Below are positions 886-21,339 of a DNA stretch of 64,000 nucleotides, piece by piece. The stretch covers positions 930,001-994,000 of the forward strand of contig JAKVOM010000001.1 of assembly GCA_022482815.1 (NCBI GenBank), given 5' to 3'. Position numbers and translations under genes: made by a program. Source of the stretch: Acidaminococcus sp. GTDB taxonomy: Bacteria; Bacillota; Negativicutes; Acidaminococcales; Acidaminococcaceae. The notes under the pieces were generated by a model. That model was not told the origin of the DNA, made no database searches, and saw only the letters and a list, made by a program, of their open reading frames with translations. How positions within the stretch are numbered: position 1 is the stretch's first letter; every line of letters starts with the position of its first letter.

Positions 886-980
886 AAAAAATCACCTCAC
901 ATATTAATCCATTGCTATGCTAGGCCAAAAACGTCAAATATTTGTCAAAAGAGAGCTTTTTTCAGTATTTTTTGTGTTCA

Positions 981-1010
981 GACGTTTTTTAGGCGAAGCA
1001 TTGGTACAAT
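981..1010 (+). promoter_or_regulatory. Promoter of the formimidoyltransferase-fhs-fchA unit with GACGTTTTT box
   Basis: GACGTTTTTT starts at 981 and a TACAAT -10 hexamer starts at 1005, 24 nt later. The same spacing recurs before the histidine permease gene and hutU. The position 17 nt before the -10 holds no good -35 hexamer, as expected for an activator-dependent promoter. A further box on the other strand (935-927) faces hutD. Confidence 0.65.
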
Positions 1011-4427: not shown

Positions 4428-4943
4428 CGTATATGAAGCAAAGCGATACAGGAAATGCCGCTGTTTATAGTCTGTATTCATAATGATATGAATGATTCGT
4501 AAATGAAGTGCCATAGAATCTATTAATCTTAAAGAAAATTTTGCAATAAAATTACTTCTTTAATGAGCCGACGGTATGATGAGGCGCCTGAAAAGCCCTT
4601 TATCGCTTATAAATTTCCTGCAAATAAGGGCAAAAAAATGACCAGTGAACCAATACAATTCAGAATTATACAATTTGGAGAATCACTTTAACATACGATA
4701 AGGGCCGAATAATTTATTTGACGGTACAGAAGAGAAATGTCATAAAAAGACTCAAAATCTGTGTTGTGCTATCAATTTTAGAAAGTAAAAAAAGCGCATG
4801 AAACCTTGTATTTTCGCATACTGACAACAAAAAGTTACAATGTTTAGCAAAGTAAAACGGTAAAACGATAAATTCCGTCAAAAGTTTCAGAAAAGAAAAA
4901 GACAAAAGAATCAGAAAAATAAAAACTATAATCGCTGTTTTTT
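4428..4943. other. AT-rich gene-free stretch before the permease promoter
   Basis: No gene can be supported here. The stretch is AT-rich and holds scattered GACGG or CCGTC elements (for example 4720-4723, and 4876-4879 on the other strand) resembling the hut-region box, which may be auxiliary regulator sites. Confidence 0.4.
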
Positions 4944-4973
4944 GACGTTTTTCAGTCAGTCATGACGTACAAT
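4944..4973 (+). promoter_or_regulatory. Promoter of the histidine permease gene with GACGTTTTT box
   Basis: TTTGACGTTTTT (GACG at 4944) is followed exactly 24 nt later by TACAAT (4968-4973). A second TGACGT directly abuts the -10. The geometry is identical to that at 981 and 8460. Confidence 0.7.
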
Positions 4974-6477: not shown

Positions 6478-8040
6478 ATGTTATTAAAGGATGTAAAGGC
6501 TATCAAAGAAGTTACGCTGAATGGCAATGACCTGACCCTGGAAGAATTGATTGCTATTTCCCGCTACGGCGCCAAGATCAAAGTTGATCCGGATGCTGTT
6601 GCCCGCATCAAAGCTTCTCGTGCTCTGATTGATGACATCGTTGAAAACGAAAAGGTTGTTTATGGTGTAACGACCGGTTTCGGTTCCCTCTGCCGCGTTT
6701 CTATTTCTAAGGAAGACTGCAGCCAGCTGCAGGAAAACCTGATTCGTACCCATTGCTGCGGCTACGGCAACCCGCTTTCCCGCGAAGTTACCCGCTGCGC
6801 TATGACGATTCGTGCTAACGCACTGGTTAAAGGTTACTCCGGTGTTCGTCTGGAAACCCTGAATACCCTGGTTGACATGATTAACAAAGGCGTTCATCCT
6901 TATATTCCTGAAAAAGGTTCCCTCGGTGCTTCCGGTGACCTGGCTCCTCTGGCTCACATGGTACTTCCGATGCTCGGCCTTGGCAAAGCAGAATATAAAG
7001 GCGTGCTGATGGATGGTAAGGAAGCTATGGAAAAAGCCGGCATTCCTATCATTAAACTGGTTGCTAAGGAAGGCCTGGGCCTCATCAATGGTACCCCGAT
7101 CCTGACCGCTATGGGCACCTTCGCTCTGTGGGACGGCATGATGCTCCTGAAACAAAGCGATATCGCTGCTGCCCTGACGATTGAAGCTAACCGCGGCATC
7201 ATTGATGCTTTCGATGAAAGACTGCATACGATTCGTCCGCATCGCGGCCAGCTCGATACTGCCTACAATATGCGTTCCCTGCTGAAGAACAGTACTTTCG
7301 TAACCCATCAGGGCGAACTCAAAGTTCAGGATCCGTACTCCCTCCGCTGCGTGCCGCAAATTCACGGCGCCAGCAAGGATGCGCTGGGCTTCGTAAAAGA
7401 AAAGGTAGACATCGAAATCAACTCCGCTACGGATAACCCGATTGTGCTTCCGGATGGCGATGTAATTTCCGGCGGTAACTTCCATGGTGAACCGATGGCT
7501 CTTCCGTTCGACTTCCTGGGCATTGGCCTTTCTGAAATCGCCAACGTTTCCGAACGTCGTCTGGAACGTACCATCAACAACTCTCTGTCCGGATTCCCAT
7601 CCTTCCTGGTTAAGCATTCCGGCCTGAACTCCGGCTTCATGATTACGCAATATGCAGCCGCTGCTCTCGTCAGCGAAAACAAAGTTCTGGCTCATCCTGC
7701 TTCCGTAGACTCCATCCCGAGCTGCGAAAACCAGGAAGACCTCGTTTCCATGGGTGCCTGCGCTGCCCGCAAAGCTGAAGAAATCTGCGGCAACGTTCGT
7801 CGTGTCGTCGCTACCGAAATCCTCGCTGCCTGCCAGGCCATTGACCTGCGCGACGGTGAAGGCTTCCATCTGGGCGATGGTACTCAGGCCGCTTACAACG
7901 CTGTTCGTAAATCCAACAAGTTCATTGAATACGATAAGGATATCCAGATGTTCGACGAATTGCAGAAGATCACCAAGACGGTTGCCGATGGTGATATCCT
8001 TGAAGCAGTTGAAGAAAAAGTCGATCTCAAGTTCTTCTAA
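6478..8040 (+). CDS. hutH: histidine ammonia-lyase
   Basis: The 520-residue enzyme deaminates L-histidine to trans-urocanate, the first step of the pathway. The Ala-Ser-Gly triad that cyclises to the MIO electrophile is at residues 151-153, within GSLGASGDLAPLAHM. Other family motifs are VYGVTTGFGSL near residues 61-71, NGTPILTA, and the C-terminal QEDLVSMGACAARKAEEI. The length is typical (about 510). The ATG at 6478 follows a strong aaggaggatgt ribosome-binding site. It lies downstream of the permease gene and ends in a clear terminator at 8054-8085. Codon choice is narrow (GCT, CTG, GGT, CGT), as in the other abundant fermentation genes here, suggesting high expression. Confidence 0.98.
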   Translation: MLLKDVKAIKEVTLNGNDLTLEELIAISRYGAKIKVDPDAVARIKASRALIDDIVENEKVVYGVTTGFGSLCRVSISKEDCSQLQENLIRTHCCGYGNPLSREVTRCAMTIRANALVKGYSGVRLETLNTLVDMINKGVHPYIPEKGSLGASGDLAPLAHMVLPMLGLGKAEYKGVLMDGKEAMEKAGIPIIKLVAKEGLGLINGTPILTAMGTFALWDGMMLLKQSDIAAALTIEANRGIIDAFDERLHTIRPHRGQLDTAYNMRSLLKNSTFVTHQGELKVQDPYSLRCVPQIHGASKDALGFVKEKVDIEINSATDNPIVLPDGDVISGGNFHGEPMALPFDFLGIGLSEIANVSERRLERTINNSLSGFPSFLVKHSGLNSGFMITQYAAAALVSENKVLAHPASVDSIPSCENQEDLVSMGACAARKAEEICGNVRRVVATEILAACQAIDLRDGEGFHLGDGTQAAYNAVRKSNKFIEYDKDIQMFDELQKITKTVADGDILEAVEEKVDLKFF

Positions 8041-8053
8041 AATCCATACCCTC

Positions 8054-8339: not shown

Positions 8340-8489
8340 ATTGACGGAAAAGTTGTTTTTTGGACGTTTTTGGTCATTTCATTGACGTTTAGCTTCTATT
8401 TCCGTCAAAAAACGTCTAAAAAGATTATTTTAAAAATATGCTAAAAATTGAATAAATTAGACGTTTTTTTGATGTAGGCTTCGTACAAT
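8340..8489 (+). promoter_or_regulatory. hutU promoter with an array of GACG boxes
   Basis: The proximal box starts at 8460 and TACAAT is at 8484-8489, again 24 nt apart. Upstream are three more forward GACG copies (8343, 8363, 8384) and two in inverted orientation (first bases at 8406 and 8416, minus strand), most continuing as GACGTTT or GACGGAAA. Neighbouring copies are 20, 21 and 10 nt apart, close to whole helical turns, as expected for cooperative binding of one regulator. The rest of the gap (8086-8339) holds no supportable gene. Confidence 0.7.
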
Positions 8490-8557: not shown

Positions 8558-10606
8558 ATGAAAAATGCTGACATTGCAAAGGCTATGACCATTAAACTGG
8601 AATTTCCTAACGGACTGCCTCCAAAGAAAAAATTTGTGGAAGGTATCCGCAGAGCTCCGGATCGTGGTTTCCGTCTGACCCCTGCTCAGACCGAAGTGGC
8701 TCTGAAGAACGCGCTCCGTTATATTCCGGAAGAATATCATGAAGAACTGATTCCTGAATTCCTGGAAGAATTGACGACCCGCGGCCGTATCTATGGTTAT
8801 CGTTTCCGTCCGGAAGGCCGTATTTATGGCAAGCCTATCAATGAATACAAGGGCAAATGCACTGAAGGTAAAGCTTTCCAGGTCATGATTGATAACAACC
8901 TGGACTTCGAAGTGGCTCTGTATCCGTATGAACTCGTTACTTATGGTGAAACTGGTTCCGTTTGCCATGACTGGATGCAGTATCTGTTGATTAAACGCTA
9001 TCTGGAAGAAATGACACCGGATCAGACCTTGGTTATGGAATCCGGTCATCCTGTAGGATTGTTCCATTCTAAACCGGAAGCTCCGAGAGTCATTATTACC
9101 AACGGTCTTATGGTTGGTGAATATGATAACCTGAAAGACTGGGAAATCGCTGAAGAAATGGGCGTTGCTAACTACGGTCAGATGACTGCAGGCGGCTGGA
9201 TGTACATTGGGCCGCAAGGTATCGTTCATGGTACGTTCAACACCATCCTGAATGCCGGCCGTCTGAAACTGGGCATTCCTAACGATGGTGACCTGAGCGG
9301 CAAACTCTTCGTAACGTCCGGTCTGGGCGGCATGAGTGGTGCTCAGGGCAAGGCTGCTATCATTGCTAACTGCGCTGCTATCATCGCTGAAGTTGATGAA
9401 TCCCGTATCAAGACCCGTCTGGATCAGGGCTGGATTACCGGCGAATCCGATTCTATTCCTGAAGTTATCAAACTGGCTCAGGATGCAATGGCTAAGGGCG
9501 AAGGCAAAGCCTATGCTTACCATGGCAACATTGTAGACCTGCTCGAATACATTGCTGACCATGATGTTCATGTAGACCTGGTTTCCGACCAGACTTCCTG
9601 CCACAACGCTTATAACGGCGGTTACTGCCCGCAGGGCCTGACCTTCGACGAACGTACGAAGATGCTGGCTGAAGATCCGAAACACTTCCGTGAACTGGTT
9701 GACAAGTCTCTCCATGCTCACTTCAATGCTCTGAAGAAAATCACCGCCAAGGGTGTATACTTCTTCGATTATGGTAACTCCTTCATGAAGGCTGTGTTTG
9801 ATTCCGGTGTCAAGGAAATCTCCAAGAACGGCATTGACGATAAAGACGGGTTCATTTGGCCGTCCTATGTAGAAGATATTATGGGACCGCAGCTGTTCGA
9901 CTACGGCTATGGCCCATTCCGCTGGGTATGCCTGAGCGGCAAACCGGAAGATCTGCATAAGACCGATATGGCTGCCATGAGCTGCATCGATCCGAACCGT
10001 CGTTATCAGGACCGCGATAACTATATCTGGATCCGCGACGCTGAAAAGAATAAGCTCGTTGTTGGTACCCAGGCTCGTATTCTCTATCAGGATGAAGTGG
10101 GTCGTGTAAATATTGCCCTGAAGTTCAACGAAATGGTTCGTAAGGGCGAAATCGGACCTGTCATGATGGGCCGCGACCACCACGACGTATCCGGCACGGA
10201 TTCTCCGTTCCGTGAAACTTCCAACATCAAAGATGGTTCTAACGTAATGGCTGATATGGCTGTACAGACCTATGCTGGCAACGCTGCCAGAGGCATGAGC
10301 CTGGTAGCTCTCCATAACGGCGGCGGTACTGGTATCGGCAAGGCTATCAACGGCGGTTTCGGCCTGGTACTGGACGGCAGCCATCGTGTAGACGAGATTA
10401 TCCGCAGTGCTCTGAGCTGGGATGTTATGAGTGGTGTTGCACGCCGCAGCTGGGCTCGCAACGAACATGCTATGGAAACGGCTGTTGAATTCAACAAGAC
10501 CCGTGCCGGCATTGGCCATCTGACCATTCCGTATCTGGCTGACGATAAGAAAGTCCATGATGCTGTAGCTAAGGTTTATCCGACCGCTCATGTCATCAAA
10601 GACTAA
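8558..10606 (+). CDS. hutU: urocanate hydratase, long form
   Basis: The product converts urocanate to 4-imidazolone-5-propionate using tightly bound NAD+. At 682 residues it is longer than the classical bacterial enzyme (about 555) and close to the eukaryotic-type length. The NAD-binding segment FVTSGLGGMSGAQGKAAIIA is near residues 251-270, and MTAGGWMYIGPQGIVHGT near 209-226 is family-typical. The extra residues include the N-terminal 100 or so (FRLTPAQTEVALKNALRYIP) and expanded C-terminal regions. The ATG at 8558 follows aaaaaaggagtggattcaaatc. It has its own promoter with the box array at 8340-8489 and is followed by hutI after 92 nt. Confidence 0.97.
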   Translation: MKNADIAKAMTIKLEFPNGLPPKKKFVEGIRRAPDRGFRLTPAQTEVALKNALRYIPEEYHEELIPEFLEELTTRGRIYGYRFRPEGRIYGKPINEYKGKCTEGKAFQVMIDNNLDFEVALYPYELVTYGETGSVCHDWMQYLLIKRYLEEMTPDQTLVMESGHPVGLFHSKPEAPRVIITNGLMVGEYDNLKDWEIAEEMGVANYGQMTAGGWMYIGPQGIVHGTFNTILNAGRLKLGIPNDGDLSGKLFVTSGLGGMSGAQGKAAIIANCAAIIAEVDESRIKTRLDQGWITGESDSIPEVIKLAQDAMAKGEGKAYAYHGNIVDLLEYIADHDVHVDLVSDQTSCHNAYNGGYCPQGLTFDERTKMLAEDPKHFRELVDKSLHAHFNALKKITAKGVYFFDYGNSFMKAVFDSGVKEISKNGIDDKDGFIWPSYVEDIMGPQLFDYGYGPFRWVCLSGKPEDLHKTDMAAMSCIDPNRRYQDRDNYIWIRDAEKNKLVVGTQARILYQDEVGRVNIALKFNEMVRKGEIGPVMMGRDHHDVSGTDSPFRETSNIKDGSNVMADMAVQTYAGNAARGMSLVALHNGGGTGIGKAINGGFGLVLDGSHRVDEIIRSALSWDVMSGVARRSWARNEHAMETAVEFNKTRAGIGHLTIPYLADDKKVHDAVAKVYPTAHVIKD

Positions 10607-10628
10607 TGTGTCAACTTTAAATTGAATC

Positions 10629-10666
10629 GGAAAGCGATTGCTGCCGCAGGGCGGCAATCGCTTTCC
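10629..10666 (+). other. Intercistronic hairpin between hutU and hutI
   Basis: GGAAAGCGATTGC-TG-CCGC pairs with GCGGCAATCGCTTTCC around a 3-nt loop with a small bulge. It is not followed by Ts, so it is more likely an mRNA-stability or processing element than a terminator. Confidence 0.5.
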
Positions 10667-10698
10667 ATGTATTCACAGGAATATGAAAAAGGAGCCGA

Positions 10699-11943
10699 AT
10701 GATGGGAAAAACTCTGTTGATTAAAAATGCGGCCCAGATAGTAACTCCGCAGGGAAAAGAAGCTCATTTCGGCAAAGAAATGAGCAATTTGAAGATTTAC
10801 GAAAACGCTTCTATCCTCGTTGAGGATGGCAAAATTGCTGCCATTGGCACCGATCCTTCCTGGGAAAAGAAAGTTCCGGAAGAAAATCAAATTGATGCGG
10901 CCGGCAAGGCCGTTTTGCCGGGCTTTGTAGACTCTCATACTCACCTCGTTTTTGGTGGTTATCGTCCGGATGAATTCCTGTGGCGCATGGGCGGTATGAG
11001 CTATATGGATATCATGAACCGCGGCGGCGGCATCGTAAATACCATGAAGGCAACTCGTGCTGCTTCCGAAGAAGAATTGGCTGATCATGCCATGGACCAT
11101 TTAAAAAAGATGCTTGCCATGGGCGTTACGACCGTGGAAGCAAAGAGCGGCTACGGCCAGGATTATGATACGGAAATCAAACAACTTCATGTAACTCAGA
11201 AACTCAATGCCTCCCAGCCCATTGAACTTGTTTCCACATTCCTGGGAGCCCATGCTGTACCGCCTGAATTTGCAGGACGGGGCGATGATTTCATCGAATT
11301 CCTGCTGAAGAAGGTTATGCCGACGGTGGCCAAGGAGCATCTCGCTGAATTTTGTGATGTCTTCTGCGAAAAAGACGTATTCTCTGTGGAACAAAGCCGT
11401 CACTTACTGACGGAAGCCCGCAAGATGGGCTTTAAGCTGAAAATCCACGCTGATGAGATTGTTTCTCTGGGCGGCAGTGAATTGGCCGGTGAGCTGCACG
11501 CTACCAGTGCTGACCATCTGCTGCACGCTTCCGACGCAGGGATTAAAGCAATGGCAGAGAACAAAGTCGTCTCTACGCTGCTGCCGACAACGGCTTTCTG
11601 CCTGCGTGAACCTTTCGCCCGTGCACGTGAAATGATTGATTCCGGCTGCGCTGTGGCACTTGCTACGGACTTCAACCCGGGCAGCGGCTTTACGTTCTCT
11701 GTACCATTGATGATTGGTCTGGCTGTAATCTATATGCACATGAGTGCTGAAGAAGCGATTACCGCACTGACTCTGAACGGTGCCGCCGCTGTTGACCGTG
11801 CGGACCGGATTGGTACGCTGGAACCGGGCAAACAGGCTGATATTGTTATTCTGCAGTATCCTTCTTACAAGTTCCTGCCATACCATACCGGCATCAATAT
11901 TGTCGAAAAGGTCATCAAGAAAGGTGAACTTGTCATCGGGTAA
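10699..11943 (+). CDS. hutI: imidazolonepropionase
   Basis: A 414-residue amidohydrolase-superfamily enzyme that opens the imidazolone ring to give N-formimino-L-glutamate. The metal-site motif SHTHLVFGGYRPDEF follows LPGFVD. The second metal-ligand region KIHADEI and the catalytic stretch ATDFNPGSG are present, and the length matches bacterial HutI (about 410-420). The start is the tandem ATG at 10699/10702 behind aaaaaggagccga. It shares the hutU transcript and ends in a strong terminator at 11964-12010. Its product is the substrate of the formimidoyltransferase encoded at 1076, which completes the route to glutamate. Confidence 0.97.
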   Translation: MMGKTLLIKNAAQIVTPQGKEAHFGKEMSNLKIYENASILVEDGKIAAIGTDPSWEKKVPEENQIDAAGKAVLPGFVDSHTHLVFGGYRPDEFLWRMGGMSYMDIMNRGGGIVNTMKATRAASEEELADHAMDHLKKMLAMGVTTVEAKSGYGQDYDTEIKQLHVTQKLNASQPIELVSTFLGAHAVPPEFAGRGDDFIEFLLKKVMPTVAKEHLAEFCDVFCEKDVFSVEQSRHLLTEARKMGFKLKIHADEIVSLGGSELAGELHATSADHLLHASDAGIKAMAENKVVSTLLPTTAFCLREPFARAREMIDSGCAVALATDFNPGSGFTFSVPLMIGLAVIYMHMSAEEAITALTLNGAAAVDRADRIGTLEPGKQADIVILQYPSYKFLPYHTGINIVEKVIKKGELVIG

Positions 11944-11963
11944 CCTATAATACTCTATATAAG

Positions 11964-12010
11964 AAGGGGCTGTGAAATAATGCACACGCATTATTTCACA
12001 GCCCCTTTTT
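11964..12010 (+). terminator. Strong terminator after hutI
   Basis: A perfect 20-bp inverted repeat, 11964-11983 with 11988-12007 around an ACAC loop, starts AAGGGGCTGTGAAATAATGC and ends in a T run. It is one member of a hairpin family dispersed over the window. Confidence 0.92.
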
Positions 12011-12094
12011 GCGTCTTATAAAACTCCCCGAAAGGATTTTCTTTTCTGTTTTCTTCCTGCTGCTATATTGAAACTGGTAAACTCGTTCTTTCCT

Positions 12095-12123
12095 TTGTTT
12101 TCTGTATGATTTTATATTATAAT
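12095..12123 (+). promoter_or_regulatory. Probable promoter of the SARP regulator gene
   Basis: A TATAAT -10 at 12118-12123 lies 17 nt after TTGTTT (12095-12100). No GACGTTTTT box is seen here, so the regulator gene itself does not appear to belong to the boxed set. Confidence 0.5.
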
Positions 12124-12165
12124 GTATAGGTATTATGGGGTAGTATGTTGTTTTTAACTGGAGAG

Positions 12166-12209
12166 GAAAATACTGAAATCAAAAGATTTTTAAACTTATC
12201 AGTATTTTC
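12166..12209 (+). promoter_or_regulatory. 11-bp inverted repeat in the SARP gene leader
   Basis: GAAAATACTGA (12166-12176) is repeated inverted as TCAGTATTTTC (12199-12209) with 22 nt between. It lies downstream of the -10 and upstream of the ribosome-binding site at about 12239-12247. It could be an operator, an attenuator stem or an autoregulatory site. Confidence 0.45.
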
Positions 12210-12250
12210 TACCGGTTGCCTGATTTTATTTGAACGGTGAGGAGGATGGC

Positions 12251-15200
12251 ATGTCTTGTAAGTTGGAAGCGCGCTTTCTTGGCGCACCGGTCATAAAAAA
12301 AGATGGGAAAGAAGTCTTTTTCCCGTACAACAAGGTCAATGCCCTTGTGTATTATATTCTCGTCAAGGGAACCGTCATGCGCGATGAGCTCAGCGGAATC
12401 CTGTGGGGTGATAAGTCGGATGCCGTTGCCAAAAAGAATTTGCGTAATGCGCTCTACGAGACCAAGAAGCTGCTTGGGAACGATGTCTTCGTATCTCCAC
12501 GAAAAGCCATTATCAAGGTCAATCCGGACGTTTCCTTTACTGTGGATGTCAAACAGTTTGAGGAGGATCCGGGCAACCATCTGGAAACGTATCAGGGAAG
12601 TTTTTTACAGGGGTTCTATATCAAGGATGCTCCCGAGTATGAAAACTGGTACCTGACGGAGCGCGATCGGCTGGAAGGCATCTATATCGATGCTCTTTTT
12701 CAAAAATTGAAGGAAGCTGTGGCCACGCGCAATATGGCCCATGTGTCCAGGTATGGAAAGCAGCTGATTGCACACAATCCATATGACGAAAGTATTTACA
12801 TTCTGCTTTTGAAGACGTATTGTGAATCCGGGAATATGCGCCAGGCTTTGGAACTGTATGACGAAATGAAGAAGCTTTTCCGTGAGGAACTGCAGAGCAG
12901 CGTACCTCCGGAAATCGAAGACATGATGAAACATGCCGAAGCCAGGGAGCGCAGTGCACAGGCTGAAACACAGCCGCAGATGGAAAATACGGCTACGGGC
13001 CGTGAGAAAGAGCAAAAGGCTGTAGCTGAAATCCTGCAGCATTTCCTGCGCGGTGACGGAGGAGACACACTGCTGCTTCGCGGGGATGCCGGAAGTGGCA
13101 AGACTATTGTGAAGGATATGGCACTCAAAACGCTTCCCCCTGATGTGGCTGTGATACAGTGTCACTGTTATCAGCCGGAGCAGAATATTTTGCTGCGCCC
13201 CTGGACGGACGTGATGGAAGGGCTGCGGAATATGATTCAGAAAGAACATATCCGCGTTCCCGATGTCGATGCGAATCGCCTGTACCGTCTTTTTCCACAG
13301 CTTGACCTGACGGAAGGCAGAGAAGTCGGACTCGGGGAAATCAAGGAACTTTTAAAGTTTGATGCAATTTTCCATACTCTTTATTCCGTGCTGGATGCTG
13401 TGACGACCAATCATCCCGTCGTAATCGTCTTTGAGGATGTGCAGTGGATGGATACGCTCAGCTTGTCTCTGCTGAGCAGTTTGATTCTTCACAAGAAATC
13501 GCGCCGTTTCATGTTTTTCCTGACGGCTCGGGAATCTCAGGAAAAGGAATTTCAGCAGTTTGAAACATCCGTTTCCATGTATGGTAAGATGCAGATTTTT
13601 GACTTGCAGACTCTTTCTTTGGAGGACGTGCGGCACTTGGCCGAGCAGCGTGACCTGGGGGTCAAGGTAGATGATAAGCTGGTGCAGCGTCTTTATGACG
13701 AGTCGGAAGGGAATTTATTCCTTCTGAATGAGTACATGATGGCTCTGAAGACGACGGGCAGTCTGGATAATCTGACCGAAAACGTCCGGGCGATCTTTAA
13801 GAGTGAGTGTATGACACTGAATGATGATCAGCGCAAGATCCTGGATTTTATTTCGCTCTTCTATGACGGTGCGCCGCTGGCCATGATTTCGGAATATATG
13901 CATATGAGTAATCTTCAGGTTTTGGAAAGCCTGGAAGTACTGGAAAAGAAAAACTTTATCCGTCCGATTCCGCAGCAGCCTGAGGTGCTCTATGAAATCG
14001 TTCAGCAGAAACTAAAGGACTATCTTCACTCCCAGCTGTCTCCGGAAAAATGCCGGATTTTGCATGGCTTTGTGGCTGAACTGTGGGAAAAGCGCCTGAC
14101 GCACTCCACTCAGGATATCCGGATTTATCGCCACCTTGAATATCATTACAAAGAAGCAGGCGAGCTGGTCAACATGGGGCGCTACAAACTGAAGACCCTC
14201 ATGTATTATCTGGACTTCAGCAACGAACTTTTCCCTGTTTTAAACAGCAGCGACGGCCAGGAAGACCGGGCGGAAAGCACTTCCATGGAGCTTCATCTGG
14301 ACGAATTTCTTGCCGAAGTCAATGAGATGATGCATACGATCCATCGGACCTACGGGGATACGGCCGAGGTCAAGGATCTGGAAATGACCTACATGCATCT
14401 CATGGGACGCCATTATATCCGGACCGGTGAATATGAAAAGGGTGTCCGCAACATTCTGAGTCTGCTGGAACTTGCCGGTGAAGTCCATAATCTGGATTAC
14501 CTGCTTATGGGTTACAAGCAGATGATTTATTATGATATCCAGATTGGCAATACGGAAGAAATGAAAAATTACCTGGAGCTTGCCCTCAATGTGGCTGATG
14601 AGTGCAACTACCACAAGGAAATGGGTATCCTGCTGAGACTGAAGGGCCTGAACATGATTATGCAGGGCGACTTCAAAGAGGCGGAACGTCTGCTCCGGGA
14701 ATCCATCTCGACGCTTATGGTTACACAGAGTGTCCAGCGCCGGTATGCTCTGAATATTGCCGGTGCCTATAATTACCTTGGTGAAATCCGCCGCGGTCAG
14801 GGCCGGCTGCAGGAGGCCCTTGATTTTTACAAAGAGGCAATGCAGTATGCTTCGAATCAAGACGCCTATAGTTCGTGGGTTGTTTTTTCCTGCAACGCCG
14901 GTATTGTGTCCTATGAAATGAAACAATATGACCTGGCGAAACAGTATTTTAATCAGGCTTATGAGCTCTTCCCCCGTTATAATTTCTATTGGCGGCACCC
15001 GATTGTTGAAGCGTATCTGGCGCTGCTTAATATGCAGGATGGAAAAGAGAAAGAAGCTCAAAAGTTTTTGGATGACGCCCTGGCTAAACTGGGGAAGATG
15101 AATAATCCCCGGGAAGCCGGATATGTCTATATGGTCATTGCTTTGGTCAAGCATGGTTACCCGGAATCGGCGCTGGCAAGTCATTATCCGGGAAGCATGT

Positions 15201-15298
15201 CAAGTTATGCAACGCGGGCCCTGCAGGTTCTGGACCAGTACCGGGATGCATGGGAACGCCAGGAATTAGAAAAATTGTTCTGTATTACCAGAAGGTAA
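12251..15298 (+). CDS. SARP-type transcriptional regulator: BTAD, AAA ATPase and TPR domains
   Basis: A 1015-residue cytoplasmic regulator. The N-terminal region has a winged-helix OmpR/SARP-like DNA-binding part (FFPYNKVNALVYYILVKG to LWGDKSDAVAKKNLRNALYE). It is followed by a bacterial transcriptional activation domain of helical repeats (to about 230). An AAA/STAND ATPase has a Walker A RGDAGSGKT at 277-285 and a Walker B VVIVFEDVQWMD near 390-401. The C-terminal third is rich in tetratricopeptide-like helices, a usual place for ligand or partner binding. The ATG at 12251 follows gaggaggat; a TTG at 12230 is possible but less likely. It is followed 19 nt later by the DRTGG gene, so all four genes to 17415 look co-transcribed. 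Placed right after hutI, it is the best in-window candidate for controlling the GACGTTTTT boxes, but this is inference. Confidence 0.85.
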   Translation: MSCKLEARFLGAPVIKKDGKEVFFPYNKVNALVYYILVKGTVMRDELSGILWGDKSDAVAKKNLRNALYETKKLLGNDVFVSPRKAIIKVNPDVSFTVDVKQFEEDPGNHLETYQGSFLQGFYIKDAPEYENWYLTERDRLEGIYIDALFQKLKEAVATRNMAHVSRYGKQLIAHNPYDESIYILLLKTYCESGNMRQALELYDEMKKLFREELQSSVPPEIEDMMKHAEARERSAQAETQPQMENTATGREKEQKAVAEILQHFLRGDGGDTLLLRGDAGSGKTIVKDMALKTLPPDVAVIQCHCYQPEQNILLRPWTDVMEGLRNMIQKEHIRVPDVDANRLYRLFPQLDLTEGREVGLGEIKELLKFDAIFHTLYSVLDAVTTNHPVVIVFEDVQWMDTLSLSLLSSLILHKKSRRFMFFLTARESQEKEFQQFETSVSMYGKMQIFDLQTLSLEDVRHLAEQRDLGVKVDDKLVQRLYDESEGNLFLLNEYMMALKTTGSLDNLTENVRAIFKSECMTLNDDQRKILDFISLFYDGAPLAMISEYMHMSNLQVLESLEVLEKKNFIRPIPQQPEVLYEIVQQKLKDYLHSQLSPEKCRILHGFVAELWEKRLTHSTQDIRIYRHLEYHYKEAGELVNMGRYKLKTLMYYLDFSNELFPVLNSSDGQEDRAESTSMELHLDEFLAEVNEMMHTIHRTYGDTAEVKDLEMTYMHLMGRHYIRTGEYEKGVRNILSLLELAGEVHNLDYLLMGYKQMIYYDIQIGNTEEMKNYLELALNVADECNYHKEMGILLRLKGLNMIMQGDFKEAERLLRESISTLMVTQSVQRRYALNIAGAYNYLGEIRRGQGRLQEALDFYKEAMQYASNQDAYSSWVVFSCNAGIVSYEMKQYDLAKQYFNQAYELFPRYNFYWRHPIVEAYLALLNMQDGKEKEAQKFLDDALAKLGKMNNPREAGYVYMVIALVKHGYPESALASHYPGSMSSYATRALQVLDQYRDAWERQELEKLFCITRR

Positions 15299-15317
15299 GG
15301 ATGAAGGAGGAACGAAT

Positions 15318-15686
15318 ATGATTACGTTACAGCAAGCTGTGGATGTGCTGCAGGCCCAGGTCGTTTCCGGAGAAAATCTGCTGAACCGGGAAGTCAAGAC
15401 GGCGTGCGGCAGCGATATGATGAGTGATGTGCTGGCTTATGCCAAGGAAAAGGCTATTCTGTTGACCGGTCTGCTCAATATTCAGGTTGTCAGAACAGCT
15501 GACGTCAGCGACGTGGCCGCACTTGTCTTTGTCCGCGATAAACATCCGGAACAGGATGTGCTGCGTGCCGCCAAGGCGAAGAATATCCCCGTTCTTTATA
15601 CCAAATGCACTATGTTTGAAGCCTGCGGCCGTCTGTACCAGTTGGGAATCCGCGGCTGTACGGCCAAAGACGCGGAGAAGCGCTGA
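15318..15686 (+). CDS. DRTGG domain protein
   Basis: A 122-residue protein made of little more than one DRTGG-type domain (GSDMMSDVLAYAKEKAILLTGLLNIQVVRTA, then IPVLYTKCTMFEACGRLYQLGIRGC). DRTGG domains accompany CBS and phosphotransacetylase domains; their ligand is not established here. Small DRTGG proteins of this kind are frequent next to RsbW-like ATPases and hydrogenase-like iron-sulphur proteins in anaerobic Firmicutes, as seen here. The ATG at 15318 is behind gaaggaggaacga, and the stop is 1 nt before the next start, implying coupled translation. The function is probably signalling; no reaction can be assigned. Confidence 0.8.
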   Translation: MITLQQAVDVLQAQVVSGENLLNREVKTACGSDMMSDVLAYAKEKAILLTGLLNIQVVRTADVSDVAALVFVRDKHPEQDVLRAAKAKNIPVLYTKCTMFEACGRLYQLGIRGCTAKDAEKR

Positions 15687-15687
15687 C

Positions 15688-16098
15688 GTGGAAAGAGAAT
15701 ATACAGTAGCTAAAGATGATTTTGAACGGGCAGGCGCAGCTTCTATTTCCCTGAAGGAGCTGCTGCAGAAACTGGGCCTTTCTCCGGAGCTGATCCGTCG
15801 GATTGCCATCGGGACTTACGAAGGGGAGATTAACTGCCTCATTCATGGGGGCGGTGGTACCGTGAAAGCCGAAATTGACGGAAAAGCGATCAAAATCATC
15901 ATCAGCGACCACGGTCCCGGTATTCCCGATGTGGGAAAGGCGATGCAGGAAGGGTGGTCTACGGCCTCCGAAGAAATCCGTGCCAAAGGGTTCGGAGCCG
16001 GTATGGGACTGCCGAATATGAAAAAGGTATCTGATGACATGGTCATCAATACGACACCGGGCGAGGGTACGACTGTAACAATGACATTTAATTGTTGA
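15688..16098 (+). CDS. RsbW/anti-sigma-like HATPase domain protein
   Basis: A 136-residue single-domain GHKL (histidine-kinase-like) ATPase. It has an N box near YEGEINCLIHGGGG, a G1-type motif ISDHGPGIPDVGKAM and a G2-type motif GFGAGMGLPNMKKVSDDM, ending in GEGTTVTMTF. The size and make-up resemble SpoIIAB/RsbW anti-sigma kinases. The usual N-box asparagine is present (EINCLIH), so ATP binding is plausible. The GTG start at 15688 lies 1 nt after the DRTGG stop, with cggagaag upstream. Family context suggests a phosphorelay or partner-switching role with the neighbouring sensor; no sigma factor or anti-anti-sigma gene is visible nearby. Confidence 0.8.
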   Translation: MEREYTVAKDDFERAGAASISLKELLQKLGLSPELIRRIAIGTYEGEINCLIHGGGGTVKAEIDGKAIKIIISDHGPGIPDVGKAMQEGWSTASEEIRAKGFGAGMGLPNMKKVSDDMVINTTPGEGTTVTMTFNC

Positions 16099-16119
16099 TA
16101 GAAAGTGCAGGTGAGGTCT

Positions 16120-17415
16120 GTGGAGAGTTCCTATCTGAATTCCGTTTATATCAACAAGGAGCGCTGTACCGGCTGTCTCCTGTGTGTCAAAAACTGTCTT
16201 GTCCAGGCTATCCGTGTTCGCCGCGGCAAGGCCGTAATCATTACGAATCGATGCATTGACTGCGGTGAGTGTGTCCGTCACTGTCCGACTCATGCCGTGG
16301 AAACTCTGGCGGAACCACTTTCGGAACTGGCCAACTATAAAGTTAATATCGCACTCGTAACACCGTCTTTTTACGCACAGTTCGGCAGTGATATTCCGGC
16401 TTCCGTGCTGTGGGCGGGCCTCAAAGAAATCGGCTTTGATTCGGCTTTTGACGTGCCTCTTGCCGGTGATTATATCAGCGAGGAGATGGAAAATTTCCTG
16501 AAGCACCATGAAGGACCGTTTCCGGTGATTTCTTCCGCTTGTCCTGCCGTACTGCGTCTGATTCAGACAAAGTATCCGGAGCTTCTGAAGCATGTGATTC
16601 CGGTGCTGGCACCGGCGGAAGCGGCGGCCATTTACGTCCGGAGGGAAACAAGCAAGCGCCTTCAGCTTGATCCTGACAAGGTTGGCATCTGGTTTTTGTC
16701 GCCTTGTCCGGCTAAAGGAACGAATATCCATCAATCCGTCGACGTGGCCCATACTGCTGTGACCGGTTCGTTTACACTGTCGTCTTTGTTTGCCCCGCTG
16801 ACCAAGGCAGTCAAAAAACTGCGGGCCGAGCGTAATGAGTTTCCCTCGATACCCCTTGGAACTTCCTACGGGCTTAGCTGGGGGGTGAAGACGGGAGAAG
16901 TAGAGGCTATGGGTGAAAAGAACGCCCTGGCTGTGAGCGGTCCACAGGATGTAGATGAAGTGCTCCAGCAGGTTATGCTCGGAAACCTTTCAGATGTGAA
17001 ATACATCTGCTGCTACATTTGTGCCGGCGGCTGTATTGGCGGGCCAAGTGTGGCTGTCAATAAGTTCGTCGCCCTGAAGAACCTGAATCGACGCATTGCA
17101 CTGCGGCGCGGCCGCGAGCTCGAAGACCGGAGAGAAGCCATGAGGGCAGCCCGCATTTGTGAAGATTTTCCAAAATCAGCCGCTTATATAAAACCGCTTC
17201 AGCCGAAACCGGCGCCGCCGCTGGATGCCGACTTTGGAAAAGCATTGGAGAAAATGGAGACTCTCACAGCGCTGGAAAAAGAATTGCCTCAGCTTGACTG
17301 CGGGGCCTGCGGCGCACCGACGTGCCGCAGCTTTGCCGAGGATGTAGTGCGCGGCTACGCCCGGAAGGAAGACTGCATTATGAAAAAGAGGGAAGCTTGC
17401 ACATGTTCTCCCTGA
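16120..17415 (+). CDS. [FeFe]-hydrogenase-like putative sensor protein (group C/D-like)
   Basis: A 431-residue protein with two N-terminal [4Fe-4S] motifs (Cys16/19/22/26 and 45/48/51/55), then an iron-hydrogenase large-subunit fold. C-terminally it has a further iron-sulphur motif, LDCGACGAPTCRS...DC (Cys394/397/402/419). H-cluster ligands can be placed at Cys141 (SSACPAV), Cys196 (SPCPAK), Cys301 and Cys305 (CAGGCIGGPS). The residue before Cys141 is Ala, where catalytic enzymes have the proton-transfer Cys of TSCCP; this change is typical of hydrogenases proposed to be sensors. No PAS domain is seen. The GTG at 16120 fits the family N-terminus best; a GTG at 16105 is also in frame. It overlaps no neighbour and closes the four-gene cassette. 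H2 or redox sensing is inference; an electron-carrier role is the alternative. Confidence 0.8.
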   Translation: MESSYLNSVYINKERCTGCLLCVKNCLVQAIRVRRGKAVIITNRCIDCGECVRHCPTHAVETLAEPLSELANYKVNIALVTPSFYAQFGSDIPASVLWAGLKEIGFDSAFDVPLAGDYISEEMENFLKHHEGPFPVISSACPAVLRLIQTKYPELLKHVIPVLAPAEAAAIYVRRETSKRLQLDPDKVGIWFLSPCPAKGTNIHQSVDVAHTAVTGSFTLSSLFAPLTKAVKKLRAERNEFPSIPLGTSYGLSWGVKTGEVEAMGEKNALAVSGPQDVDEVLQQVMLGNLSDVKYICCYICAGGCIGGPSVAVNKFVALKNLNRRIALRRGRELEDRREAMRAARICEDFPKSAAYIKPLQPKPAPPLDADFGKALEKMETLTALEKELPQLDCGACGAPTCRSFAEDVVRGYARKEDCIMKKREACTCSP

Positions 17416-17670: not shown

Positions 17671-17728
17671 TGTGCTATTGCTTTAAGAGAATAGGACTGT
17701 ATGTTCTGTTGTCAGGGAGGTGCGTTAT

Positions 17729-19255
17729 TTGACTACAGCTGAAAAGATTCAGGATTTACTCGCACGTTATGAAAAGATCGAGGCCGGTGGTGGTGCCAAG
17801 AGAGTTGCCAAGCAGCATGATTCCGGTAAAATGACCGCACGGGAACGCATCGATGCTTTTCTGGATAAAGGAAGTTTTGTAGAACTCGATAAATTTGTTG
17901 AGCATCGCTGCTCTAATTTTGGCCAGGAAAAGAAATATCTGGCCGGTGACGGCGTAGTCACAGGGTATGGTACGGTAAACGGCCGTACGGTATTTGTCTA
18001 TGCCCAGGATTTTACCGTAGAAGGCGGCAGCCTTGGTGAAATGCATGCAAATAAGATTGCCAAGGTTCAGGCCATGGCACTCAAAGTAGGAGCTCCGATT
18101 GTTGGTATGTCCGATTCCGGTGGTGCCCGTATTCAGGAGGCTACGGATGCACTGGCCGGCTTTGGTAAGATGTTCATGCAGAACACCAAGGCATCCGGGG
18201 TTATTCCTCAGATTTCCGCTATTATGGGACCTTGTGCCGGCGGTGCGGTATACAGCCCGGCACTGACGGATTTCATCTACATGGTGAAAAAGAGCTCCAA
18301 GATGTTTATTACGGGGCCTGAGGTCGTAAAATCCGTTACGGGTGAAGACGTTGGTCAGGAAGACCTGGGCGGCACTTTTACTCACACCACGCGTTCCGGC
18401 GTTGCTGATTTCCCGGCGGAAAACGATGCGGACTGTTTGGAACAGATCCGTTATCTGTTGAGTTTCCTTCCGTCTAATAACCGTGAAAAACCGCCTGTGT
18501 ATGAAACTGGCGACAGTGCTTACCGGACGGATGAAAGTCTGAATACGATTGTTCCGGACGGATCCCATCTCCCGTACGATATGTACAAAGTAATCCGCAG
18601 CATCGTTGATAACGGTGAGTATGTAGAACCGCATAGAATGTATGCCCGCAATATCATTACCTGCCTTGCCCGCATGGACGGCAGCACGGTAGGTATCATT
18701 GCTAACCAGCCGCGCATCATGGCCGGTTGCCTTGATATTAACGCGTCCGATAAAGCGGCCCGTTTCATTCGTTTCTGCGACGCCTTCAATATTCCGCTGA
18801 TTAACATTGTTGATGTTCCGGGCTTCCTGCCGGGAACTGACCAGGAATACGGCGGCATTATCCGTCATGGTGCCAAGATGCTGTATGCATACTGCGAAGC
18901 CACGGTGCCGAAGATTACGCTGGTAACGCGTAAGGCTTACGGGGGTGCTTATCTGGCTATGTGTGCCCAGGATCTGGGTGCGGATCACGTCATTGCATGG
19001 CCGACAGCCGAAATCGCTGTCATGGGGCCTCAGGGCGCTGCCAAGATTATTTTCCGTCATGAAGACGACGTGGAAGCAAAGACCCAGGAATATATTCAGA
19101 ACTTTGCTACTCCGTACTATGCTGCCAAGCACGGTATGGTTGAAATGGTTATCGAACCGAAGGTTACTCGCCCGACGCTGATTAAAGCTCTGCGTATGTT
19201 AAAATCAAAGCAGGAAGACCGACCAGAAAAGAAACATGGTAACATTCCTCTGTGA
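17729..19255 (+). CDS. mmdA: methylmalonyl-CoA decarboxylase-type carboxyltransferase alpha subunit (GctM/MmdA-like)
   Basis: A 508-residue biotin-dependent carboxyltransferase, closely resembling Veillonella methylmalonyl-CoA decarboxylase alpha (about 509 residues) from TARERID near the N-terminus to the C-terminal KKHGNIPL. Acyl-CoA and carboxybiotin loops are visible in GAPIVGMSDSGGARIQEA, MGPCAGGAVYSPALTDF and AYGGAYLAM. It would move CO2 from an acyl-CoA to the biotin of GcdC. In A. fermentans the 3' end of such a gene (gctM) was reported just upstream of gcdDCB; here the gene is complete. The start is taken as TTG at 17729, 8 nt after gggagg; the GTG at 17720 lies inside that ribosome-binding site. 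It is a different protein from GcdA at 39394. Whether the substrate is methylmalonyl-CoA is not shown by sequence. Confidence 0.9.
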   Translation: MTTAEKIQDLLARYEKIEAGGGAKRVAKQHDSGKMTARERIDAFLDKGSFVELDKFVEHRCSNFGQEKKYLAGDGVVTGYGTVNGRTVFVYAQDFTVEGGSLGEMHANKIAKVQAMALKVGAPIVGMSDSGGARIQEATDALAGFGKMFMQNTKASGVIPQISAIMGPCAGGAVYSPALTDFIYMVKKSSKMFITGPEVVKSVTGEDVGQEDLGGTFTHTTRSGVADFPAENDADCLEQIRYLLSFLPSNNREKPPVYETGDSAYRTDESLNTIVPDGSHLPYDMYKVIRSIVDNGEYVEPHRMYARNIITCLARMDGSTVGIIANQPRIMAGCLDINASDKAARFIRFCDAFNIPLINIVDVPGFLPGTDQEYGGIIRHGAKMLYAYCEATVPKITLVTRKAYGGAYLAMCAQDLGADHVIAWPTAEIAVMGPQGAAKIIFRHEDDVEAKTQEYIQNFATPYYAAKHGMVEMVIEPKVTRPTLIKALRMLKSKQEDRPEKKHGNIPL

Positions 19256-19267
19256 TTTTGATATAAT
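19239..19267 (+). promoter_or_regulatory. Internal promoter of gcdDCB
   Basis: A perfect TATAAT at 19262-19267 lies just after the mmdA stop, with a weak -35 (GTAACA, 19239-19244) inside the mmdA 3' end. This matches the distinct gcdDCB transcript reported for A. fermentans, so the beta, gamma and delta subunits can be made without the mmdA product. Confidence 0.6.
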
Positions 19268-19299
19268 TCATTCATCAACAGGAAAGAGAGGTGACATTC

Positions 19300-19623
19300 A
19301 TGACTGAAAACCCTTGGTTAATTGCACTAATCAACATGACGATTGTGTTCGGCGTGCTGATTGTCCTGGGTATTCTGATGAAGATTATTTATTGGATTGA
19401 CCCGACAAAGAACAAGAAACCGCAGGCCAAAAAACCGGTTCCGGCTAAACCTGCTTCTGCAGCAGCTGCTGCAAGACAGGAAGAGGAAAAGGTGGCTGCT
19501 ATCGCAGCTGTATTAGCACTCGTACAAGATGAGGACGATGCAATGGCCGCGGCCCTGGCAGCTGCAATTGCCGAGCATAAGAAAAAGATGGAGCCGATGG
19601 CTCTGCCTCATCACTTTTTCTGA
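19300..19623 (+). CDS. gcdD: glutaconyl-CoA decarboxylase delta subunit
   Basis: A 107-residue small subunit, the same length as I recall for A. fermentans GcdD. One N-terminal transmembrane helix (about residues 6-31, LIALINMTIVFGVLIVLGILMKIIYWI) is followed by a Lys/Pro/Ala linker (residues 36-60) and an Ala-rich helical tail ending HHFF. Delta subunits of this family anchor the carboxyltransferase subunit to the membrane-bound beta subunit. The ATG at 19300 lies behind gagaggtgac; the GTG at 19291 overlaps that site. The gene heads gcdDCB. The delta subunit could serve both GcdA and the MmdA-like subunit. Confidence 0.93.
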   Translation: MTENPWLIALINMTIVFGVLIVLGILMKIIYWIDPTKNKKPQAKKPVPAKPASAAAAARQEEEKVAAIAAVLALVQDEDDAMAAALAAAIAEHKKKMEPMALPHHFF

Positions 19624-19647
19624 TAAACAGAGGAGGGCTGTTTATCA
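19621..19647 (+). other. Hairpin overlapping the gcdD stop, AGGAGG in its loop
   Basis: TGATAAACAG (19621-19630, beginning with the gcdD stop codon) pairs with CTGTTTATCA (19638-19647), leaving loop AGGAGGG. About 20 nt downstream is ATG-TGA (19658-19663), a start codon followed at once by a stop. This could set the ratio of the abundant biotin carrier to the other subunits. Confidence 0.5.
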
Positions 19648-19727
19648 GGGGAAAAGTATGTGAATGCCGCTTGAGCGGATAAAACAATAAACATCAAGCA
19701 AGTAAGGAAAATTAGGAGGTTATTGTA

Positions 19728-20171
19728 ATGAGAAAATTTAATGTAAACGTTAATGGTACTGTTTACCAAGTAGAAGTTGAAGAAGTTGGCGGCGCCGTTT
19801 CCGCTGCTCCTGTTGCTCCGGCTGCTCCTGCTGCCGCTGCTGCCCCTGCTGCTGCTCCTGTAGCTGCTGCTCCTGCCGCTGCTCCTGCTGCTGCTCCTGC
19901 ACAGGCTGCTCCTGCTGCTGCTCCTGCTCCTAAGAAGGAAGCTGCTGCTGCACCTGCCGGCTCTGTAACTGTAGAAGCTCCTATGCCTGGTAAGGTTCTG
20001 TCCGTTAACGTTAAACCCGGCGACAAAGTTGAAGCCGGTGATGTCCTGCTGATTCTGGAAGCTATGAAGATGCAGAACGAAATCATGGCTCCGGAAGACG
20101 GTACTGTTTCTGACGTCCGTGTAAGCGCTGGCGATACCGTTGCTACCGGTGACGTGATGGTTGTTCTCTAA
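19728..20171 (+). CDS. gcdC: glutaconyl-CoA decarboxylase gamma subunit, biotin carrier
   Basis: A 147-residue biotin carrier protein. The N-terminal 20 residues form a short beta segment. Residues about 26-68 are almost only alanine and proline, a flexible arm. The C-terminal biotinyl domain carries EAMKM with the acceptor lysine at 114. The arm swings carboxybiotin from the carboxyltransferase (GcdA or the MmdA-like subunit) to the Na+-pumping beta subunit. In A. fermentans the arm is likewise about 50 residues of Ala/Pro. The ATG at 19728 follows attaggaggttattgta, a strong ribosome-binding site that fits the need for excess carrier. The repetitive gctgctcctg-type DNA here is prone to length change. 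Confidence 0.95.
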   Translation: MRKFNVNVNGTVYQVEVEEVGGAVSAAPVAPAAPAAAAAPAAAPVAAAPAAAPAAAPAQAAPAAAPAPKKEAAAAPAGSVTVEAPMPGKVLSVNVKPGDKVEAGDVLLILEAMKMQNEIMAPEDGTVSDVRVSAGDTVATGDVMVVL

Positions 20172-20208
20172 TCTCACGCCACCTGCTTAATAAGGAGGAC
20201 GTAAGAAT

Positions 20209-21339
20209 ATGGATGCTTTTCTTGTAGCTCTGCAGTCTATTATCACAGACAGCGGATTTACAGCTTTTACGATGGGCAATGCCATCATGATGCTGGTAGG
20301 CTGCATCCTGCTCTACCTTGCCATTGTAAAAGGGTTTGAACCGCTGCTTCTGACCCCGATTGCCTTCGGGTGCCTGCTGGCTAATATTCCTAAAACCGGG
20401 TTCGAAACCGATCCTGGTGTTATGAAGCTGATCCTGGCTGGTATCAAATACGAAGTCTTCCCTCCGCTCATTTTCATGGGCGTAGGTGCTATGACTGACT
20501 TTGGCCCACTGATTGCTAACCCGAAGACGCTGCTCCTTGGTGCTGCTGCTCAGGCCGGCGTGTTCGTAGCGCTGCTGGGTGCCATGCTGCTGGGCTTCAA
20601 TGTCCGCGAAGCTGCTGCTATCGGTATCATTGGCGGTGCTGATGGCCCGACTTCCATTTATCTGGCCACTAAGATGGCTCCTCATCTGTTAGGTGCAATC
20701 GCTGTTGCCGCTTATTCCTACATGTCTTTGGTCCCTCTGATTCAGCCGCCTATTATGAAGCTGTTTACTTCCAAAGAAGACCGTAAGATTAAGATGGCTC
20801 AGCTGCGTACGGTTTCCCACTTTGAAAAAGTGGTATTCCCGATTGTCTGCACCATTTTCATTTCCCTGCTTCTGCCTTCCGTATGCTCTCTGATCGGTAT
20901 GCTGATGCTGGGTAACCTCTTCACCGAAGCTGGCTGCCTCGGACGTTTGTCCGATACGGCTCAGAACGCTTTGATGAACACCGTTACTATCATGCTGGCA
21001 ACTGGTACAGGTCTTACCATGAAGGCTGAAAGCTTCCTGACTTATCAAACCATCCTGATTATCTTCCTGGGTCTGGTTGCCTTTGCCGGTGGTACCGCCG
21101 CTGGTGTTATCTTTGGTAAACTTATGTGCATCCTTGACCACGGCAAGACGAATCCGCTGATTGGCAGCGCCGGCGTATCTGCCGTTCCTATGGCTGCCCG
21201 CGTATCTCAGGTTGTAGGTCAGAAAGCCAACCCAAGTAATTTCCTGTTGATGCATGCTATGGGCCCGAACGTGGCTGGCGTTATCGGTACGGCTGTTGCC
21301 GCCGGTACGATGTTGGCTATGATTGGACCTGCAAAATAA
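20209..21339 (+). CDS. gcdB: glutaconyl-CoA decarboxylase beta subunit, Na+-translocating
   Basis: A 376-residue integral membrane protein with about 11 hydrophobic segments. It decarboxylates carboxybiotin and uses the energy to export Na+. The family signature [17 protein letters not shown] is near residues 142-160; its Asp is among the residues linked to Na+ transport in homologous oxaloacetate decarboxylase. A second polar stretch, [20 protein letters not shown], is near the C-terminus. The ATG at 20209 follows taaggaggacgtaag. The gene ends the operon, with a strong terminator 11 nt later. The protein should be shared by whichever alpha subunit is present. Confidence 0.96.

Follow-up and report, generated by a model that had tools for sequence, protein, structure and literature searches.

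A large SARP predicted to activate histidine utilization genes probably meets a HydS module left from a hydrogenase cluster in Acidaminococcus

Four consecutive genes were analysed in a 64,000-nucleotide (nt) stretch of the genome of a gut bacterium, Acidaminococcus sp. (contig JAKVOM010000001.1, positions 930,001 to 994,000), hereafter the window, whose numbering is used below. They encode a large SARP regulator of 1015 residues, a DRTGG-domain protein, a GHKL ATPase/kinase-like protein, and HydS, an [FeFe]-hydrogenase-like protein; the last three are called the trio. We consider it probable that the 19-nt gap (15299-15317) is the boundary between two separate modules, the SARP belonging with the histidine utilization (hut) genes and the trio being a remnant of a hydrogenase (hyd) cluster. 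The novel part of the finding is the predicted hut activator with its predicted operator. A first-pass annotation had described four genes on one strand with gaps of 19, 1, and about 21 nt, lying between hut genes and Na+-decarboxylase genes, and this layout was borne out by the gene calls and Pfam. All four genes are on the plus strand; the SARP-DRTGG, DRTGG-GHKL, and GHKL-HydS gaps were 19, 1, and 21 nt, and the flanks are hutI, which ends at 11943, and decarboxylase-type genes starting at 17720. Position 12095, given as the start of the element, falls in the upstream region of the SARP gene, which begins at 12251. The domains BTAD, AAA_16, and TPR of the SARP, DRTGG, HATPase_c_2 of the GHKL protein, and Fe_hyd_lg_C with Fer4 and a C-terminal FeS domain of HydS each scored above the curated cut-off.

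The neighbourhood of the SARP was compared among genomes. A profile scan of genome contigs gave 178 SARP relatives, of which the best 80 named loci, nearly all from Firmicutes, were examined and 98 weaker relatives lie outside the set. As found in 70 of the 80 loci, hutH, hutU, or hutI was located within 10 kb of the SARP. In five loci, the hut-type genes were those of the folate branch only (ftcD, fchA, or fhs), some of these loci also having a gntP-type permease. The remaining five were without any hut-type neighbour, and in each of them the contig ends within 4 kb of the SARP on one side or both. The trio was present in the SARP locus in six of the 80, all six being Acidaminococcus. The nearest SARP relatives outside this genus, those of Veillonella seminalis, Veillonella ratti, and Veillonella magna (58-60% identity), are arranged as SARP-gntP-hutH without the trio. 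In a quick SARP tree of 72 rows (six loci left out because their frames were broken or partial, six streptococcal rows dropped as redundant), Acidaminococcus grouped with those Veillonella (SH-aLRT 92), apart from three other Negativicutes SARPs. In a class sample of 380 Negativicutes genomes, with cut-offs of E <= 1e-30 for the SARP and E <= 1e-100 for hutU, the SARP was present in 42 genomes, hutU in 68, and both in 36. The hutU gene was within 15 kb of the SARP in 28 of the 42 SARP genomes and anywhere in the genome in 36. Comparison of these loci links the SARP to the hut genes, and a role of the protein in histidine fermentation is very probable.

By domain layout, this protein of 1015 residues is a large SARP. 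Its BTAD (PF03704) scored 47.2 bits against a cut-off of 22.1, and AAA_16 and TPR_12 scored 63.7 and 62.9 bits in Pfam. At residues 4-98 the predicted strands and helices fit an OmpR-type winged helix with modest model confidence, and no Pfam winged-helix match was obtained at E 0.01. The score against the AfsR equivalog of NCBIfam (NF053617) was 20.8 bits, under the cut-off of 1430. A profile search from the SARP retrieved AfsR (structures 8k60 and 8jke) at a modest E of 7e-8. When the predicted model was used in a fold search, a STAND-TPR protein ranked first and the maltose-system structure 8bob sixth, and AfsR was not in the first 50 rows.

The upstream regions of the gntP-hut genes of Acidaminococcus and Veillonella were aligned, and one common element was found, in which TTTTGAC and a second heptamer ending G-N-C are separated by 4 nt and a -10 box follows after a further 10 nt. 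The rule described for SARPs is that the repeats are 11 bp apart and that the 3' repeat is 8 bp from the -10 (PMC10936776); the difference of 2 from the 10-nt gap here depends on where the end of the repeat is set. A weight matrix built from nine sites was then applied to held-out loci outside Acidaminococcus and Veillonella, and a locus counted as a success if its top-scoring site, over its full length and both strands, fell 30-350 nt ahead of a hut-type gene. Success was obtained in 27 of the 64 held-out loci, compared with 2.1 expected by area, and 200 column-permuted matrices gave a mean of 1.7 and a maximum of 12. When the repeat period was altered from 11 to 9, 10, 12, or 13, the successes fell to 3, 3, 4, and 1; when the gap to the -10 was altered from 10 to 8, 9, 11, or 12, they fell to 7, 6, 2, and 2. 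An earlier matrix test with fewer target genes had given 21 of 62 loci (24 with the linker masked) versus 1.0 expected. A generic promoter as the source of the signal was rejected on these 62 loci, the -10 alone giving 2 successes and the repeats alone 7. The element without its second heptamer gave 14 and without its first heptamer 9, compared with 24 for the full element with masked linker. Comparison among loci identifies this element as the predicted operator.

The window was then ranked over 127,934 positions, using a matrix that excluded the gntP site of the window itself and kept the near-identical site of locus L091. The predicted sites at the hut promoters (gntP, ftcD, hutD, and hutU) took ranks 1, 2, 4, and 6 (Table 1). 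No notable box was found ahead of the SARP, DRTGG, HydS, and gcdA genes, whose best upstream sites ranked 460, 502, 466, and 31, and box-driven control of the SARP, the trio, or gcdA was dropped on these ranks. Box-like sites were also noticed in other loci. In Vagococcus allomyrinae (L132) there is a strong site at 14817 on the minus strand, 337 nt ahead of glmL (13095-14480, minus), a glutamate-mutase accessory gene. Similar minus-strand sites lie about 2 kb beyond the SARP in L122, L144, L151, and L155. The three Veillonella loci L098-L100 lack hutH, hutU, and hutI; there, a SARP of 38% identity stands by fchA, fhs, and a gntP-type permease, and at about 5900 (minus) a gene is preceded by a near-consensus box.

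It is conceivable, and in our judgement unlikely, that the repeat element belongs to another regulator, such as a HisR-like or global factor, and that the SARP merely adjoins the hut genes. In some SARP-bearing hut loci the box is not the top-scoring site, strong box-like sites occur away from target genes in several loci, that ahead of glmL among them, and a hisR paralogue is located beside hutH in Oscillibacter (PMC9413887). However, the box has the geometry of a SARP site, an 11-bp period just before the -10, and the signal is gone if either distance shifts by 1. Furthermore, the box was recovered beside SARP genes of 24-38% identity.

The order SARP-DRTGG-GHKL-HydS-gcdADCB was found on one strand in all nine Acidaminococcus genomes, one of them with an inserted permease gene, and the four-gene arrangement is therefore not due to chance. 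The first-pass annotation would have given up its idea for an order confined to this genome and lacking regulatory effect on neighbouring operons; the order occurs across one genus rather than in one genome. In eight genomes the SARP-DRTGG spacing of 18-60 nt fits co-transcription; in A. provencensis (G008), a second gntP-type permease lies between the SARP and DRTGG genes (L066 10432-11733). An additional gcdD-like fragment was seen in the same A. provencensis locus (L066 4441-4617). The hutI gene adjoins the SARP upstream in eight of the nine genomes; in G001, a LacI-type regulator (L059 13319-14314, minus) is in its place and hutU is on another contig. The present genome also contains a second hut set (L078, G000:C1:330000-346000, at 2463-14181), with hutH, hutU, and hutI homologues above the NCBIfam cut-offs and a gntP-type permease; beside this set, an ISL3-type transposase interrupts a SARP paralogue.

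The SARP and the trio differ in their recurrent neighbours: the SARP is repeatedly found with hut genes, the trio with hydABC and a cluster of CoA-transferase and decarboxylase genes. In the class sample, HydS (E <= 1e-80) was present in 80 of the 380 genomes, 71 of them outside Acidaminococcus, and HydB (E <= 1e-120) was within 6 kb of HydS in 60 of these 71. Among the remaining 11, HydB was on another contig in six and not detected at E <= 1e-120 in five. When 16 hyd loci were read, the order GHKL-HydS-DRTGG2-PHP-HydC-HATPase-HydB-HydA was found on one strand in all 16, with the first DRTGG gene in 15. A CoA-transferase gene came next after HydA in 12 of the 16 within the sequence stretch examined, followed by methylmalonyl-CoA mutase in eight. 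In the family outside Acidaminococcus, ten genomes carried HydS on the same contig as a gcdA-like gene, at a distance of 12.1-12.3 kb in nine and of 6.5 kb in G034, which is without hydABC; eight more had the two genes on different contigs, and another eight had no gcdA-like gene at the cut-off. The corresponding distance in Acidaminococcus was 0.3-1.8 kb.

HydB was absent from all nine Acidaminococcus genomes, and the trio is not upstream of a bifurcating hydrogenase there. In eight of the nine, the HydB profile matched a stretch of about 100 residues only, which in one scanned case was part of another flavoprotein. A CoA-transferase gene lies between HydS and gcdA in five of the nine genomes and is 71-73% identical to that of G034; no other hyd remnants were found between HydS and gcdA in the nine genomes, all further matches being at E 0.014 or worse. 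A relocation of the trio in Acidaminococcus was rejected, as relatives show the same downstream genes (CoA-transferase and gcdA-like). Since the hyd cluster of relatives runs on to the CoA-transferase and gcdA-like genes, the trio most likely kept its position when the hyd genes were lost from Acidaminococcus, as judged from gene order. In one other genus of the family (L205-L208: G034, G070, G069, and G066; 60-92% complete), trio-DRTGG2-CoA-transferase occurs without hydABC, and this genus may represent a second, separate loss of hydABC.

In its sequence, HydS carries most of the features published for the [FeFe]-hydrogenases of group D, which are putatively sensory. It has two N-terminal [4Fe-4S] motifs, an H-domain, and a C-terminal Cx2Cx4Cx16C motif (C394, C397, C402, and C419); no PAS match was found in the Pfam scan. 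The H-cluster cysteines are C141, C196, C301, and C305, with A140 for the proton-relay cysteine C299, S194 for M353, and E260 as the relay residue, the residues being placed by motif and by offset from TamHydS numbering in an 11-sequence alignment. The H-cluster and C-terminal cysteines were invariant across the 11 sequences. Against the group B (B1) model TIGR04105, HydS scored 148 bits, under the cut-off of 450, and the fold of its predicted model resembles that of [FeFe]-hydrogenases (mean pLDDT 77, query TM about 0.58). The closest solved relatives of the GHKL protein are the SpoIIAB anti-sigma F structures 1tid, 1th8, and 1l0o, and no relatives of the DRTGG protein were found in PDB at E 0.01. 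The maturase HydF was present in all nine Acidaminococcus genomes. The present genome also holds another HydA beside a GltD-like flavoprotein. The ratio of nonsynonymous to synonymous substitution rates (dN/dS) was 0.08-0.12 for the three trio genes in two unsaturated pairs, indicating purifying selection, and no internal stop codon was found in any trio gene compared among the nine genomes.

Under the two-module explanation, the SARP would bind the direct repeat (period 11 bp) immediately ahead of the -10 box and bring RNA polymerase to the promoters of hutD, ftcD-fhs-fchA, gntP-hutH, and hutU-hutI. A histidine-derived metabolite, or lack of glutamate, may free the STAND/TPR part of the SARP and so lead to hut activation; both the activation and its ligand, from the histidine pathway or glutamate itself, are what we infer. 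In the family, the trio stands at the head of a cluster of the order DRTGG-GHKL-HydS-DRTGG2-PHP-HydC-HATPase-HydB-HydA-CoA-transferase-mutase-gcdA/mmdA. Acidaminococcus would have lost the part from DRTGG2 to HydA, leaving the trio beside the CoA-transferase/gcd genes and still under selection, and a hut cluster ending in the SARP now adjoins it upstream. Transcription of the trio most likely begins at the SARP promoter or inside the SARP gene, because eight of the nine genomes leave no room for another promoter outside the SARP gene. HydS probably reports H2 or redox state to some target.

Several observations weigh against the two-module explanation or parts of it. The SARP of G001 remains with the trio while its upstream neighbour is the LacI-type gene and hutU is elsewhere, and the SARP frame is broken in two of the nine Acidaminococcus genomes (G006, at a run of C, and G007). 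In the class sample, 32 of the 68 hutU genomes were without a SARP at the cut-off used. The SARP loci are related, so that their counts are non-independent trials. In the operator analysis, 37 of the 64 held-out loci had their best site elsewhere, and no streptococcal locus was among the 21 successes of the 62-locus test. The strict consensus had three matches genome-wide, two of them hut promoters, and the reversed control also had three; the consensus is therefore too loose for a genome-wide regulon. HydS has Tyr (Y299) at the M497 position, where TamHydS has Leu, in a column that varies among the 11 sequences.

The first-pass annotation had proposed that the SARP and the trio form one redox switch for histidine/glutamate fermentation. 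HydS would sense H2 and signal via the GHKL and DRTGG proteins to the SARP, which would tune the hut and gcd genes. The SARP-hut linkage and the group D marks of HydS uphold a part of this proposal, and the joining of the two does not follow, no SARP box being present before the trio or gcdA. We hold the joint switch to be improbable. It would explain the adjacency of SARP and trio on one strand in all nine genomes, with short gaps in eight, and would fit the purifying selection on the trio and the presence of HydF; it is kept alive because the G001 SARP stays with the trio and not with hut genes. Nevertheless, a SARP-trio cassette across Negativicutes was not supported, as SARP and HydS were within 10 kb in none of the 10 other class-sample genomes having both. 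Moreover, the gcd-side neighbours of the trio are accounted for by the old hyd cluster, and a permease parts SARP from trio in G008. Neither a SARP-trio contact nor a regulation of gcd is supported: nothing here ties the trio to the SARP protein, and nothing puts trio or gcd under it, because no notable box lies upstream of the SARP, the trio, or gcdA. A version in which an orphaned H2/redox sensor was rewired behind the hut SARP, with HydS acting through GHKL/DRTGG on the STAND domain of the SARP or on the gcd genes, is similarly doubtful; if it were true, histidine and glutamate use in Acidaminococcus would be set by both substrate and H2. Very improbable is the idea that the trio is a decaying, functionless leftover, for although hydABC is gone from all nine genomes and the trio's own upstream region is lost, the intact frames, the low dN/dS, and the invariant metal-ligand cysteines argue against it, as does the retained HydF, though HydF also serves the other HydA.

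The features of the region are listed in Table 1. The hutH, hutU, and hutI products each exceeded the NCBIfam equivalog cut-off. The beta and delta/gamma-type decarboxylase subunits were above their family cut-offs, and the alpha subunit had mmdA as its top match at 859.5 bits, under the cut-off of 998.8. The inverted repeat between hutI and the SARP gene was not among the results of the repeat scan. An IS1182-family transposase gene lies just past gcdB (21557-23185, minus; 314 bits, cut-off 270). The present genome, which its named relatives place in Acidaminococcus, is 3.06 Mb in one contig, and those of the eight congeners are 2.2-2.7 Mb.

Table 1. Genes and predicted sites of the hut-SARP-trio-gcd region, in window coordinates
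Feature	Position	Strand	Remark
hutD	322..885	-	PF05962, 82.7 bits
Predicted SARP box and -10	917..950	-	65 nt ahead of hutD, divergent from the ftcD site; rank 4
Predicted SARP box and -10	977..1010	+	99 nt ahead of ftcD-fhs-fchA; rank 2
ftcD, formiminotransferase	1076..1981	+	
fhs, formate-tetrahydrofolate ligase	2003..3673	+	
fchA, formiminotransferase-cyclodeaminase family	3744..4364	+	
Predicted SARP box and -10	4940..4973	+	112 nt ahead of gntP-hutH; rank 1
gntP-type permease, Na+/H+-antiporter family	5052..6362	+	Candidate histidine transporter by context only
hutH, histidine ammonia-lyase	6478..8040	+	TIGR01225, 647 bits, cut-off 539
Predicted SARP box and -10	8456..8489	+	102 nt ahead of hutU-hutI; rank 6
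hutU, urocanate hydratase	8558..10606	+	TIGR01228, 438 bits, cut-off 375
hutI, imidazolonepropionase	10699..11943	+	TIGR01224, 482 bits, cut-off 298
Inverted repeat, 20 bp, 4-nt loop, terminator-like	11964..12007		Between hutI and SARP; read by eye
-10-like element of SARP promoter	12110..12123	+	TATAAT at 12118-12123; kept in 5 aligned Acidaminococcus upstream regions
Large SARP (BTAD, STAND ATPase AAA_16, TPR)	12251..15298	+	1015 residues; predicted hut activator
DRTGG-domain protein	15318..15686	+	122 residues; gene 1 of HydS trio; Pfam 35.7 bits, cut-off 25.2
GHKL ATPase/kinase-like protein	15688..16098	+	136 residues; GTG start; HATPase_c_2
HydS, [FeFe]-hydrogenase-like	16120..17415	+	431 residues; group D (M2e) layout; GTG start (alternative 16105)
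gcdA-D-C-B-type Na+ decarboxylase genes	17720..21339	+	Old downstream neighbours of the trio's cluster

The present comparison offers a testable predicted regulator, with its predicted operator, for histidine breakdown in many Firmicutes, spanning Acidaminococcus, Veillonella, Clostridium, Peptoniphilus, Enterococcus, and Vagococcus. In addition, Acidaminococcus would be a natural uncoupling, in which a group D HydS module was kept under selection after the loss of hydABC, and this argues against the module being a mere accessory of HydABC.

Among known systems, the MalT-type STAND regulators combine an ATPase with a TPR sensor, and the DNA-binding part of MalT is C-terminal and of LuxR type. 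The present SARP resembles MalT in having an ATPase plus TPR sensor, which makes inducer control a natural guess, and differs in its N-terminal, BTAD-type DNA-binding part. Histidine genes are controlled by HutP, an RNA-binding antiterminator. They are also controlled by HutC (PMC12772324, PMC12977541), a GntR repressor, and HisR is a DNA-binding factor of the his operon (PMC9413887). All three control histidine genes as the SARP is predicted to do, but none of them is a SARP. According to a 2026 preprint (PMC13320830), glutamate represses the transcription of hutHUI in one gut species and reduces the use of histidine by A. intestini, a result of relevance to imidazole propionate; a search of its main text found neither "regulator" nor "transcription factor". 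Among the literature matches listed, none linked a SARP/BTAD regulator to hut genes, and none linked DRTGG/GHKL to HydS in Acidaminococcus.

The AfsR-type large SARPs of Streptomyces share with the present protein the SARP/BTAD part, the nucleotide-binding domain, and the TPRs, and they recognize direct repeats 11 bp apart just ahead of the -10 (PMC10936776); in contrast, the present SARP occurs in Firmicutes and is linked to amino-acid catabolism, not to antibiotic genes. The GHKL protein is similar to the anti-sigma F factor SpoIIAB in fold and in its aligned ATP-site motifs, but it scored 57.6 bits against TIGR01925, under the cut-off of 135. That group D genes occur ahead of bifurcating hydrogenases and close to kinase-like genes has already been published, and their role was called unknown there (PMC8163306). 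The present HydS agrees with TamHydS (group D/M2e) in domain layout, in H-cluster ligands, in having Ala at C299 and Ser at M353, in the relay Glu, in the C-terminal Cx2Cx4Cx16C motif, and in the kinase-like ATPase encoded next door (PMC8163306, PMC11803613). It differs from TamHydS in the Tyr at the M497 position, in belonging to a genus without hydABC, and in adjoining hut and gcd genes.

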